Of a DNA stretch of 64,000 nucleotides, positions 42,825-47,432 are shown piece after piece. Below the pieces are notes generated by a model. It had not been told where the DNA came from. It was given only the letters and a program-made list of their open reading frames with translations, and did no database searches. The DNA lies in contig NZ_FMZQ01000001.1 in NCBI RefSeq assembly GCF_900102635.1, forward strand, positions 62,001-126,000, given 5' to 3'. The DNA is from Ectopseudomonas chengduensis. GTDB taxonomy: Bacteria > Pseudomonadota > Gammaproteobacteria > Pseudomonadales > Pseudomonadaceae. How positions within the stretch are numbered: position 1 is the first letter of the stretch; each line of letters begins with the position of its first letter. The position numbers and the translations under genes were made by a program.

Positions 42825-45008
42825 ATGCAAAATGACCTCGATCACAGACTCACCACCCTCAATCCCGCCCAGCACCACGCGGTCACCACGCCGCCTGGTC
42901 ATCAGCTGGTGCTGGCCGGTGCCGGCTCGGGCAAGACCCGTGTGCTGGTGCACCGCATCGCCTTCCTGATCCAGCGCCTGGACGTCTCGCCACACAGCAT
43001 CCTGTCGGTGACCTTCACCAACAAGGCGGCCGCCGAGATGCGTCACCGTATCGAAGACGTGCTGGGCCACGCCCCTGCCGGCATGTGGGTCGGCACCTTC
43101 CACGGCCTGGCTCACCGCCTGCTGCGTGCGCATTGGAAGGAGGCCAAGCTGGCCGAGAACTTCCAGATTCTCGACTCCGACGATCAGCAACGCCTGATCA
43201 AGCGGGTGATCCGCGACCTCGGCCTGGATGAGCAGCGCTGGCCGGCCAAGCAGGCACAGTGGTTTATCAACGGGCAGAAGGACGAGGGCATCCGCCCGCA
43301 GGGCATCCAGGCCAGCGGCGACCTATTCCTGGCCACCATGCGCGGCATTTATGAAGCCTACGAGGCGGCCTGCGCACGCACCGGCGTCATCGATTTCGCC
43401 GAGCTGCTGCTGCGTGCCCTCGACCTCTGGCGCGACAATGCCGGCCTGCTGGAGCATTACCAGCGCCGCTTCCGCCATATCCTGGTCGACGAGTTCCAGG
43501 ACACCAACGCCGTGCAATACGCCTGGTTGCGCTTTCTCGCCAAGGGCGGCGAAAGCCTGATGGTGGTGGGTGACGATGACCAGTCGATCTACGGCTGGCG
43601 CGGCGCGAAGATCGAGAACATCCAGCAGTTCGACAGCGATTTCGCCGATGCCGAGATCATCCGTCTGGAGCAGAACTACCGCTCCACGGCGAACATCCTC
43701 AATGCCGCCAACGCGCTGATCGCCAACAACCAAGGGCGCCTCGGCAAGGAGCTGCGCACCGACGTCGGTGATGGCGAGCCACTGGCTCTGTACGCCGCCT
43801 TCAACGAGCACGACGAAGCGCGCTACGTGGTGGAAACCATCGAGGACGCCCTGCGCAAGGACTGCCTCAAGCGCAGCGAGATCGCCATTCTCTATCGCTC
43901 CAACGCCCAATCGCGGGTGCTGGAAGAGGCGCTGCTGCGCGAGAAGATCCCCTACCGCATCTACGGCGGTCAGCGCTTCTTCGAGCGTGCCGAGATCAAG
44001 AACGCCATGGCCTACCTGCGCCTGCTCGACGGGCGCGGTAATGATGCAGCGCTGGAGCGCATCATCAACGTGCCGGCGCGCGGCATCGGCGAGAAGACCA
44101 TCGAGACCATCCGCGAATACGCCCGCGCCCATGACGTGCATATGTGGGAGGCGATTCGCCTGATGCTGACGGTCAAGGCGCTGCCCGCTCGCGCCTCGGG
44201 CGCCCTGGCCGGCTTCATCGAACTGATCGACAGCCTGGCCGAGCAGGTGCTGGCCATGCCGCTGCACCAGATGACCCAGGTGGTCATCGAAAAGAGCGGC
44301 CTGCTCGCCTATCACGAGGCGGAAAAAGGCGAGAAGGGCCAGGCCCGGGTGGAAAACCTGGAGGAACTGGTCAGCGCCGCGCGTACCTTCGAGAACGATG
44401 AGGACGACGAGCTGACCCCGCTGCAGGCCTTCCTCACCCACGCCTCGCTGGAGGCCGGGGACACCCAGGCCGCCGAGAACGAAGACAGTATTCAACTGAT
44501 GACCCTGCACAGCGCCAAGGGCCTGGAATTCCCGCTGGTGTTCCTGGTGGGCATGGAAGAGGGTCTGTTCCCGCACAAGATGAGCCTGGAAGAACCGGGC
44601 CGATTGGAAGAAGAACGCCGCCTGGCCTATGTCGGCATTACCCGTGCCATGCAGAAGCTGGTGATCAGCTACGCCGAAACACGGCGTCTCTACGGTAGCG
44701 AGACCTATAACAAGGTGTCGCGCTTTGTCCGCGAAATCCCCGCACCGCTGATTCAGGAAGTACGCCTGAGCAACAGCGTCAGCCGCCCGATGAGCACCAG
44801 TTCGATGGGTGGCGGCAGCCTGTTCGCCGGCAGTGCCATACCGCAAACGCCCTTCAACCTGGGCCAGCGCGTACGTCACAGCCTGTTCGGCGAGGGCACC
44901 ATCCTCAATTTCGAGGGTGCTGGCGCCCAGGCGCGGGTCCAAGTGAATTTCGAAAACGAAGGCAGTAAATGGCTGATGCTGGCGTACGCCAAGCTTGAAG
45001 CCTATTAG
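42825..45008 (+). CDS. uvrD: DNA helicase II UvrD
   Basis: This 727-aa superfamily 1A helicase unwinds DNA in excision and mismatch repair. Walker A AGAGSGKTRVLVHRI is at residues 31-45; VTFTNKAAAEMRHRI is motif Ia; LVDEFQDTNAVQYAWLR is Walker B; QSIYGWRGA, LEQNYRST, MTLHSAKGLEFPLVFLVGMEEGLFP and EERRLAYVGITRAM are later helicase motifs. A Tudor-like C-terminal tail (LGQRVRHSLFGEGTILNFEGAG) is present. The length is close to E. coli UvrD (720). The ATG has no visible ribosome-binding site. Confidence 0.97.
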   Translation: MQNDLDHRLTTLNPAQHHAVTTPPGHQLVLAGAGSGKTRVLVHRIAFLIQRLDVSPHSILSVTFTNKAAAEMRHRIEDVLGHAPAGMWVGTFHGLAHRLLRAHWKEAKLAENFQILDSDDQQRLIKRVIRDLGLDEQRWPAKQAQWFINGQKDEGIRPQGIQASGDLFLATMRGIYEAYEAACARTGVIDFAELLLRALDLWRDNAGLLEHYQRRFRHILVDEFQDTNAVQYAWLRFLAKGGESLMVVGDDDQSIYGWRGAKIENIQQFDSDFADAEIIRLEQNYRSTANILNAANALIANNQGRLGKELRTDVGDGEPLALYAAFNEHDEARYVVETIEDALRKDCLKRSEIAILYRSNAQSRVLEEALLREKIPYRIYGGQRFFERAEIKNAMAYLRLLDGRGNDAALERIINVPARGIGEKTIETIREYARAHDVHMWEAIRLMLTVKALPARASGALAGFIELIDSLAEQVLAMPLHQMTQVVIEKSGLLAYHEAEKGEKGQARVENLEELVSAARTFENDEDDELTPLQAFLTHASLEAGDTQAAENEDSIQLMTLHSAKGLEFPLVFLVGMEEGLFPHKMSLEEPGRLEEERRLAYVGITRAMQKLVISYAETRRLYGSETYNKVSRFVREIPAPLIQEVRLSNSVSRPMSTSSMGGGSLFAGSAIPQTPFNLGQRVRHSLFGEGTILNFEGAGAQARVQVNFENEGSKWLMLAYAKLEAY

Positions 45009-45031: not shown

Positions 45032-46126
45032 ATGAATCGCCGCAATCTGTTCGGCGCCGCTGTGGCACTGATCGCCGCCATCGGCCTGGTTGGCTGTAAA
45101 GAAGACAAGGCTGCCAGCGAGCAAGCCGCTGCCAAGCCAGCAGAAACCGTCCACTGGAAGATGGTCACCTCCTGGCCGAAGAACTTCCCCGGCCTGGGCA
45201 CCGCTGCCGAGCGCCTGGCCGAGCGCATCAACGCCATGAGCGCCGGGCGCCTGACCGTCAAGGTCTATGCCGCTGGCGAGCTGGTGCCGGCGCTGGAAGT
45301 GTTCGACGCCGTCTCGCGCGGCACCGCCGAGATGGGCCATGGCACGCCGTACTACTGGAAGGGCAAGGTGCCGGCTGCGCAGTTCTTCAGCAGCGTGCCA
45401 TTCGGCCTGTCCACCCTGGAAATGAACGCCTGGTTGAGCAAGGGCGGCGGTCAGGCACTGTGGGACGAAACCTACGCACCCTTCGGCGTGAAGCCGCTGT
45501 CGGCCGGCAACACCACCATGCAGATGGGCGGCTGGTTCAACAAGGAAATCAACAGCCTGGCCGACATCAAAGGCCTGAAGATCCGCATGCCGGGCCTCGG
45601 CGGCGAAGCCTGGAGCAAGCTCGGCGCGATCACCGTCAACCTGCCGGGTGGCGAGATTTTCACCTCCCTGCAGACCAGCGCCATCGATGCCACCGACTGG
45701 GTCGGCCCGTACAACGACCTGGCCTTCGGCTTGCACAAGGCGGCCAAGTACTACTACTTCCCGGGCTGGCAGGAGCCGCAGGCCGTGGTCGAATCCATGG
45801 TCAACCAGAAAGCCTTCGACGCGCTGCCGGCCGACCTGCAGGCCATCGTCGTCGAAGCCGCGCGCGCCGCGACCCTGGATATGATGGACGACTACGTGTT
45901 CAACAACGCCAAGGCGCTGCAAAGCCTGAAGAGCGAGGGCGTGCAGTTCAAGCGTCTGCCGGACGAGGTGCTGCAAGCCATGCGTGAGCAATCCAACGTG
46001 GTGCTCGAAGCTCTGGCTGCCGAGAACGACCTCAACGGCCGCATCTGGGCCTCGCAGAAAGCCTTCCTCGAAGAGGCCAGCGCCATGCAGGCGCTGACCG
46101 AGAAAGAGCTGTACAACTGGCGTTGA
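45032..46126 (+). CDS. TRAP-type substrate-binding lipoprotein (DctP family), copy 1
   Basis: This 364-aa protein begins MNRRNLFGAAVALIAAIGLVGCKED, a lipoprotein signal with Cys22. The DctP fold is seen from VHWKMVTSWPKNFPGLGTAAERLAERINAMSAGRL; GTPYYWKGKVPAAQFFSSVPFG, GGWFNKEINSLADIKGLKIRMPGLGG and IDATDWVGPYNDLAFGLHKAAKYYYFPGW resemble the branch that binds 2-oxo acids or related carboxylates (TakP-like). No TRAP membrane subunits (DctQ/M) lie nearby. A near-identical paralogue follows. The substrate is not known. Confidence 0.9.
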   Translation: MNRRNLFGAAVALIAAIGLVGCKEDKAASEQAAAKPAETVHWKMVTSWPKNFPGLGTAAERLAERINAMSAGRLTVKVYAAGELVPALEVFDAVSRGTAEMGHGTPYYWKGKVPAAQFFSSVPFGLSTLEMNAWLSKGGGQALWDETYAPFGVKPLSAGNTTMQMGGWFNKEINSLADIKGLKIRMPGLGGEAWSKLGAITVNLPGGEIFTSLQTSAIDATDWVGPYNDLAFGLHKAAKYYYFPGWQEPQAVVESMVNQKAFDALPADLQAIVVEAARAATLDMMDDYVFNNAKALQSLKSEGVQFKRLPDEVLQAMREQSNVVLEALAAENDLNGRIWASQKAFLEEASAMQALTEKELYNWR

Positions 46127-46135
46127 GCCAACTGA

Positions 46136-46158
46136 ACGGGGCCAAGAGCCCCGTTTTT
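46136..46158 (+). terminator. Intrinsic terminator between the two TRAP binding protein genes
   Basis: ACGGGGC-CAAGA-GCCCCGT is a 7-bp stem followed by five Ts, 10 bases after the first gene's stop. Both genes may therefore be separately expressed, or the second by read-through only. Confidence 0.85.
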
Positions 46159-46175
46159 CTTAGGGATAACTGCCG

Positions 46176-47258
46176 ATGCGTCTTCGCTCTCTGCTCCTCC
46201 TGCCCCTGCTCGCCTTCGGCCTCATCGGCTGCAAGGACGACTCCGCGCCGGCCGACCAGGCCGCAGCCCCCGCCCAGACCTTCCACTGGAAGATGGTCAC
46301 CACCTGGCCGAAGAACGCACCCGGCACCGGCACCGCAGCCGAACGCCTGGCCGAGCGCGTCAACGCCATGAGCGCCGGGCGCCTGACCATCAAGGTCTAT
46401 GCCGCTGGCGAGCTGGTGCCGGCGCTGGAAGTGTTCGACGCGGTGTCGCGCGGCACGGCCGAACTCGGCCACGGCACGCCCTACTACTGGAAGGGCAAGG
46501 TGCCGGCCGCACAGTTCTTCGGTGCGGTGCCCTTCGGCCTGTCCACCCTGGAAATGAACGCCTGGCTGAACAAAGGCGGCGGCCAGGCGCTGTGGGACGA
46601 AGCCTATGCACCGTTCGGCCTCAAGCCGCTGACGGCGGGCAACAGCACCATGCAGATGGGCGGCTGGTTCAACAAGGAAATCAACAGCCTGGCTGACATC
46701 AAAGGCCTGAAGATCCGTATGCCGGGCCTCGGCGGCGAAGTCTGGAGCAGCCTGGGTGCGACCACCGTGGTGATGCCGGGTGGCGAAATCTTCACCGCCC
46801 TGCAGACCGGCGCCATCGACGCCACCGACTGGGTCAGCCCCTACAACGACCTGGCCTTCGGCCTGCAGAAGGCCGCCAAGTATTACTACTACCCCGGCTG
46901 GCAGGAGCCGCAATCGGTGCTCGAACTCTTGATCAACCAGAAGGCATTCGATGCGCTGCCGGCCGACCTGCAGGCCATCGTCACCGAAGCGGCACGCGCA
47001 GCGACCCAGGACATGATGGACGACTACGTTTACCACAACGCCCTGGCGCTGGACGAACTGAAGAAGAGCGGCACGCTGCTCAAGCGCTTCCCCGACGAGG
47101 TGCTGCAGGCCATGCAACGCGAGAGCGAACAAGTGCTTGGCGAGCTGGCCGCGCAGAGCGAGCTCAACGGCCGCATCTGGGCCTCCATGCAGGCCTTCCA
47201 GGCGCTGGCCACCTCGATGCAGGCGCTGTCGGAGAAAGAGCTGTACGACTGGCGCTGA
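46176..47258 (+). CDS. TRAP-type substrate-binding lipoprotein (DctP family), copy 2
   Basis: This 360-aa protein has a lipoprotein signal MRLRSLLLLPLLAFGLIGCKDD (Cys19). From FHWKMVTTWPKNAPGTGTAAERL on, it is nearly collinear with copy 1, with long identical blocks (for example AGRLT(V/I)KVYAAGELVPALEVFDAVSRGTAE). Differences cluster in the signal/linker, around TTVVMPGGEIFTALQTGAIDATDWVS, and near the C-terminus. It arose by tandem duplication. No membrane subunits are adjacent. Confidence 0.9.
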   Translation: MRLRSLLLLPLLAFGLIGCKDDSAPADQAAAPAQTFHWKMVTTWPKNAPGTGTAAERLAERVNAMSAGRLTIKVYAAGELVPALEVFDAVSRGTAELGHGTPYYWKGKVPAAQFFGAVPFGLSTLEMNAWLNKGGGQALWDEAYAPFGLKPLTAGNSTMQMGGWFNKEINSLADIKGLKIRMPGLGGEVWSSLGATTVVMPGGEIFTALQTGAIDATDWVSPYNDLAFGLQKAAKYYYYPGWQEPQSVLELLINQKAFDALPADLQAIVTEAARAATQDMMDDYVYHNALALDELKKSGTLLKRFPDEVLQAMQRESEQVLGELAAQSELNGRIWASMQAFQALATSMQALSEKELYDWR

Positions 47259-47286
47259 GCCGCTCAGGGTTATAGCCCTTACCCTT

Positions 47287-47347
47287 GTGGGAGCCCCGCC
47301 CCGGGGCGAAGCTTTAACCCAGCTTCGCGGCGGGGCGCCGCTCCTAC
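47287..47347. repeat. GTGGGAGCCCCGCCCCGGGGCGAAGCT inverted repeat
   Basis: A 27-base arm beginning GTGGGAGCCCCGCC (47287) faces an inverted near-copy ending GCCGCTCCTAC (47347), a long REP-like stem after the second TRAP gene. Confidence 0.75.
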
Positions 47348-47432
47348 CCGTTCGGCGCGGCCACATCTGACCTATCGGGCTCCGTTTGTCGTTCCAGGCT
47401 GCGCCTCATGCCCTGGCGGCCATACTTCACGG

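Follow-up and report, generated by a model that had tools for sequence, protein, structure and literature searches.

The genes takP1 and takP2 (products P1 and P2), which stand in tandem in the window (the whole 64,000-nucleotide stretch analysed, C28:62001-126000), encode TakP-type TRAP receptors that probably use the membrane subunits TakQM encoded 183 kb away; side-chain preference has probably diverged between the copies, and P2 may have a lower or separate level. Sharing of a distant pair of membrane subunits Q and M (QM) is the best reading of P1 and P2 and appears well supported, because receptor and TakM occur together across genomes, uvrD-linked TakP stands beside QM in relatives, and lone QM loci are found there. 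P1 and P2 would each catch ligand in the periplasm and then dock on TakQM. The earlier note had offered sharing of a distant DctQM pair as one of two possibilities; this proposal is supported by co-occurrence, linkage and lone QM loci, while the docking step itself we infer from the co-occurrence and the linkage in relatives. Since TakQM also has a QM-linked receptor of its own, three receptors would feed one QM.

The tandem receptor genes and their signals

Table 1. Features of the takP1-takP2 locus, with positions counted from the first letter of the window.
Feature	Position	Strand	Basis
Helicase gene of uvrD type, conserved upstream of takP; a landmark outside the transporter	42825..45008	+	ORF; name by inspection
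takP1 (P1), TakP-type TRAP receptor, predicted lipoprotein, 364 aa	45032..46126	+	ORF, family and structure matches
takP1 signal segment MNRRNLFGAAVALIAAIGLVGC, twin-arginine-like start, LVGC lipobox	45032..45097	+	sequence motifs
Terminator-like hairpin (stem 46134-46156) and T-rich tail between takP1 and takP2	46134..46161	+	folding
takP2 (P2), second TakP-type TRAP receptor, predicted lipoprotein, 360 aa	46176..47258	+	ORF, family matches, model
takP2 signal segment MRLRSLLLLPLLAFGLIGC, LIGC lipobox, no twin arginine	46176..46232	+	sequence motifs
Asp replacing Glu at the cation-ligand position	45695-45697 (P1 residue 222), 46827-46829 (P2 residue 218)		alignment to TakP

As the earlier note had stated, the two open reading frames hold full DctP domains: PF03480 (Pfam DctP, model length 286) is covered nearly in full by both P1 (4-284, E 3.8e-59) and P2 (3-284, E 9.7e-60). 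Both proteins exceed the cut-off of 50 bits for NCBIfam TRAP_S1 (82.7 bits for P1 and 87 for P2) and score under the cut-off of 175.05 for NCBIfam TIGR00787 (dctP; 71.7 and 79.8 bits), by which they are placed outside the narrower TIGR00787 dctP subfamily and within the wider DctP family. The description of the copies as nearly identical did not hold, since identities of 80% between the proteins (over 345 aa) and 82.3% between the aligned coding sequences (over 1080 bases) rule out near-copies. The uvrD-like gene and takP1 are separated by 23 bases, and takP1 and takP2 by 49. The genes flanking the pair resemble UvrD, TetR-type and Tim44-type proteins, named by inspection. No match to PF04290 or PF06808 was found inside the window, so that no TRAP membrane subunit adjoins the pair, in agreement with the earlier description.

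The signal segments end in LVGC (P1) and LIGC (P2), which we take to be lipobox-like, and P1 starts with MNRR, presumably a twin-arginine-like motif that is missing from the start of P2. On the presumed lipoboxes the lipoprotein signals reported for both copies are retained, and the signal segment of the QM-linked paralogue has an end of the same kind. Anchoring as a mark of a non-transport role was considered and rejected: the QM-linked TakP and many TakPs of relatives, whether QM-linked or sole, start with lipoprotein-like signals as well, and membrane anchoring is therefore no argument for sensing.

The hairpin and T run between the copies lie in a segment (46120-46172) that folds at -19.3 kcal/mol (z -2.58, with 1 of 200 shuffles equally low), whereas a simple consensus terminator scan called nothing in the takP1-takP2 spacer; the intrinsic terminator named earlier is accordingly kept here as terminator-like. 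Because of this hairpin, P2 may be produced separately from P1 or in smaller amounts, and it is the hairpin that suggests the different expression once proposed for the two copies. Among the 18 named loci with the pair, the spacer is short (46-52 bp) in 10, which have a comparable hairpin, and 121-234 bp long in the other 8. A GC-rich inverted repeat, perhaps a REP-like element, lies past takP2 (47285-47350) and resembles sequence within the P1-P2 spacer of three of the loci read (L093, L094 and L116).

The TakP branch and the ligand pocket

The AlphaFold models of P1 and P2 have mean pLDDT values of 85.0 and 85.2, respectively. In a fold search with the P1 model, the top 14 PDB rows were chains of 5cm6, 4pet, 2hzk/2hzl, 7ug8, 4yic and 4yzz. 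Judged by sequence as well as fold, the nearest proteins of solved structure are 5cm6, 4pet, 7ug8 (a ketoacid-binding protein by name) and TakP of Rhodobacter sphaeroides (2hzk/2hzl), a TRAP 2-oxo-acid receptor that P1 resembles in fold with a TM score of 0.84-0.87 by query length. Sequence comparison puts P1 and P2 in the TakP branch (2-oxo-acid/cation) of the TRAP receptors. They share family PF03480 and five of six cation and carboxylate residues with the Rhodobacter sphaeroides protein, but differ from it in being predicted lipoproteins, in carrying Asp for Glu214 and in having their genes apart from QM.

In TakP, pyruvate and a cation are held by Tyr100, Gln156, Arg177, Glu214, Trp215 and Glu240, according to the available part of the structural report (PMC1839085). 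Five of these six cage residues are identical in P1 and P2, and Glu214 is replaced by Asp, which is also acidic. Asp occupies this position in 13 of 13 P1 rows, 12 of 12 P2 rows and 36 of 37 single-copy Pseudomonadaceae rows; Glu is found in all four QM-linked rows and in 29 of 33 rows of other families. The cation-ligand Asp is nearly fixed in the uvrD-linked TakPs of Pseudomonadaceae and not in the QM-linked ones.

P1 and P2 have no residue in common at 25 of the 325 core columns. Such fixed differences affect 4 of the 9 positions that line the pocket wall in TakP, versus 21 of 310 positions in the rest of the core (Fisher p 0.003, which is a guide only because the rows are related); the pocket positions were transferred from a relative whose identity in the structural alignment is 37-38%, and A213 of the TakP paper (PMC1839085) is T in the structure chain. 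The comparison suggests that P1 and P2 take the same ligand class with different side-chain preferences, given the fixed differences between their pocket walls. The different ligands proposed in the earlier note find indirect backing in these differences and in the purifying selection on both copies described below; the ligand itself we infer to be a small 2-oxo (or 2-hydroxy) monocarboxylate bound with a cation.

History and selection of the two copies

In a tree from which near-duplicate rows were dropped (121 of 234 kept), P1 and P2 form separate clades across species, with supports of 99 and 100. Homogenisation of the copies was ruled out, as the tree groups them by position and not by species. 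Median dN/dS, computed on 19 sequences per copy, is 0.078 for P1, 0.066 for P2 and 0.289 between the copies of one genome, and the sequences indicate that both genes are under purifying selection. Both copies are present in all 16 genus genomes with a P1 match at least 91% identical. Of the 78 named loci, 18 carry the pair, and all 18 are from Pseudomonas. The pair stems from an ancient tandem duplication of the receptor found downstream of uvrD across much of the order.

The two copies might be redundant, both taking the same ligand and being kept for dosage only, with the QM-linked P doing the rest. P1 and P2 do share fold elements and ligand-cage letters. However, each copy constitutes a clade across species, the columns without a shared residue are in excess in the pocket wall, and the ratio between copies stands well apart from the 0.066-0.078 within copies, which makes redundancy unlikely.

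TRAP systems of the genome and the distant TakQM

PF03480 matches 16 places in this genome. DctQ scores above its cut-off at 11 places, and 11 of the 22 DctM matches adjoin these, giving 11 DctQ/DctM pairs. Every one of these QM pairs has a P nearby, and therefore five receptors are unpaired, namely the pair in the window and three others (C27:403683-404534, C26:265582-266430 and C28:434892-435737). The latter are further DctP receptors for which the genome likewise holds no QM free of its own P; their higher PF03480 scores and their start segments place them in another DctP class than P1 and P2.

Membrane subunits for a TakP-type receptor do exist in the genome, as TakQM lies at about 290-292 kb of C28. 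The single TakM at E<=1e-150 is at C28:290724 and P1 at C28:107032. The earlier note had proposed looking for unpaired dctQM elsewhere; TakQM is not unpaired here, having its own QM-linked P, while such lone loci did turn up in relatives. This QM-linked P (C28:288847, divergent from its QM) is the closest paired receptor to P1, at 60% identity, followed by one at 46%. In the tree it is sister to the uvrD-linked TakPs of Pseudomonadaceae (support 94, under the starred level of the tool), and in Pseudomonas the QM-linked receptor may be a later arrival.

With 11 DctQ/DctM pairs in the genome, P1 and P2 could instead use another pair than TakQM, and the available part of a study in P. aeruginosa suggests that IctQM uses the non-cognate receptor DctP (PMC12599236). 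We consider this very improbable for P1 and P2, as their presence tracks TakM in both genus and order and no other paired receptor comes as close to P1 as the TakQM-linked one.

Co-occurrence of receptor and TakM

P1 is matched at E<=1e-60 in 47 of 398 genus genomes; the match in one of them (G403) is only 43% identical, which leaves 46 genomes with the receptor, each at least 68% identical. UvrD is beside the receptor in all 32 genus loci read of these 46. TakM at E<=1e-150 is found in 45 of the 398 genomes, all of them among the 46, and one genome has TakP alone. These are not 45 independent events, because the counts are clustered by descent.

In an order-wide sample of 293 genomes (E<=1e-98 for P and E<=1e-135 for M, cut-offs picked after the score gap between subfamilies had been seen), P was found in 191 genomes and M in 189, with both in 186, P only in 5, M only in 3 and neither in 99. 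At the looser cut-offs of 1e-80 and 1e-110, the counts are 205 for P, 209 for M and 196 for both. The order-wide numbers, too, carry no correction for descent. The five P-only genomes include one in which TakM is in two pieces (G610) and one that is 79% complete (G487), and the three M-only genomes include one that is 83% complete (G510). At the G610 locus (L240, 8452-9848) the two pieces of TakM overlap, as if frameshifted, beside TakP.

Against sharing of a distant QM, TakQM already has its own P, TRAP pairing is called usually unique (see below), and one genome, G175, has the receptor without PAR-QM. In G175 the receptor is intact with all cage letters, and PAR-QM is absent at the syntenic site. 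An assembly gap was ruled out as the cause, since this site falls within a contig of 1.5 Mb, where the flanking genes are present without PAR-QM. About 2 kb of other DNA takes the place of the PAR-QM of relatives (L262, 8403-10481).

Gene order in relatives

UvrD precedes the receptor in 72 of the 78 named loci. The order uvrD-takP with oppositely oriented M and Q behind it occurs in four named loci (Alcanivorax and Alloalcanivorax), in 7 of 20 further loci, and in L237 and L238. Among the 115 genomes with both P and M among the matches listed, the P-to-M distance is at most 3.5 kb in 54 and 3.5-20 kb in 23; P and M are more than 20 kb apart on one contig in 16 and on different contigs in 22. 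These distances are linear, chromosome circularity being ignored, and the 22 different-contig genomes were not taken as splits. For four Pseudomonadaceae among the 115 the QM-linked P was used, and all four fall within the 54 at <=3.5 kb.

At 12 lone QM loci in relatives, a model scan found no DctP-like ORF within about 5 kb, and all 10 control loci scored; 3 of these 10 hold proteins used in building the model, and 2 of the 16 DctP proteins of the genome itself came out short (L010 and L013). Of these 12, L249 has its P at a distance of 14 kb, and L259 comes from the family with tandem arrays. A further locus (L260, in G545) has a different TRAP set with a 35% identical P beside it and was therefore not counted. 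In seven of the lone-QM genomes (L252-L258), the TakP locus consists of UvrD and P with no QM, and a uvrD-linked TakP with its QM elsewhere is therefore a recurrent state in the order. In the TakM tree, lone and uvrD-linked QMs are intermixed.

The earlier note had named sensing or another non-transport role as the other possibility, in which the anchored receptors would report ligand to a membrane sensor and feed no QM. No QM adjoins the pair, and the TctC-type receptor BctC is described as active in both transport and signalling in the available part of PMC5812351. The retention of the receptor without TakQM in G175 is the sole point for such a role among the genus genomes, and positive evidence was otherwise not found. 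TakM is missing from only 1 of the 46 receptor-bearing genus genomes, and the uvrD-linked TakP of the order either adjoins QM or is the TakP accompanying a lone QM. A constant sensor gene was not seen, the GGDEF/EAL-like gene next to uvrD here being unmatched in the stretches of, for example, L099 and L101-L106. A sensing role thus seems improbable, and sharing of the distant TakQM is preferred.

Proposed receptor sharing and known systems

A second tandem case is found in family f26, where 7 of the 8 genomes read (G461, G521, G545, G567, G606, G625 and G682) carry two to three TakPs in tandem and the eighth (G493) a single copy. The TakPs of f26 are a single clade, distinct from the Pseudomonas pair (support 99), and the tandem copies likewise vary at pocket-wall positions. 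TakM lies 7-28 kb from the TakPs, start to start, and occupies one place per genome among the matches listed (to about 2e-174), with weaker second matches existing. From the receptor tree, this tandem expansion near a TakQM apparently arose separately from the Pseudomonas pair.

On balance we lean towards a multi-receptor TRAP importer, in which one TakQM would serve three receptors with diverged pockets (one QM-linked and two in tandem at uvrD), with the same tandem expansion having occurred separately in another family near its TakQM. If true, such an importer widens its range by added receptors and not by added membrane units. Several receptors per distant QM are unusual for TRAP importers, and receptor-membrane pairing in TRAP systems is called usually unique in the part of PMC12599236 available, where receptor duplication and sharing are noted for ABC importers. 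Some ABC importers have several binding proteins for each membrane unit (PMC12599236, available part), and several receptors are likewise proposed per unit here; TRAP importers differ from them in being secondary transporters, and their receptor sharing is here a proposal.

For IctPQM and DctPQM of P. aeruginosa, the same available text proposes receptor swapping between related TRAP systems (PMC12599236). There the whole transporter is duplicated, whereas here only the receptor is, in tandem and in the TakP branch. The orphan TctC/Bug receptors of Bordetella, as far as the accessible part of PMC5812351 describes them, likewise outnumber their membrane subunits; they belong to another receptor family (TTT), in contrast to the three TakP-type receptors and one TakQM linked here by the gene order of relatives. 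A search of mostly non-subscription literature found no paper joining dctP, uvrD and a TRAP transporter, and no described TRAP system with several or tandem receptors on one QM beyond the suggestion in the available part of PMC12599236.

The locus and its relatives provide a natural series, with the receptor beside QM, far from QM, or in tandem with QM near or far, and receptor sharing in TRAP importers is therefore directly testable. They also carry a warning that an "orphan" TRAP receptor may be the old receptor of a distant QM.

Stretches without a match to UvrD, Q or M also hold TakP-like receptors, namely L152, L153 and L156, from Serpens gallinarum, Atopomonas hussainii and P. flexibilis, respectively; the genomes of L152 and L156 have these as second copies.
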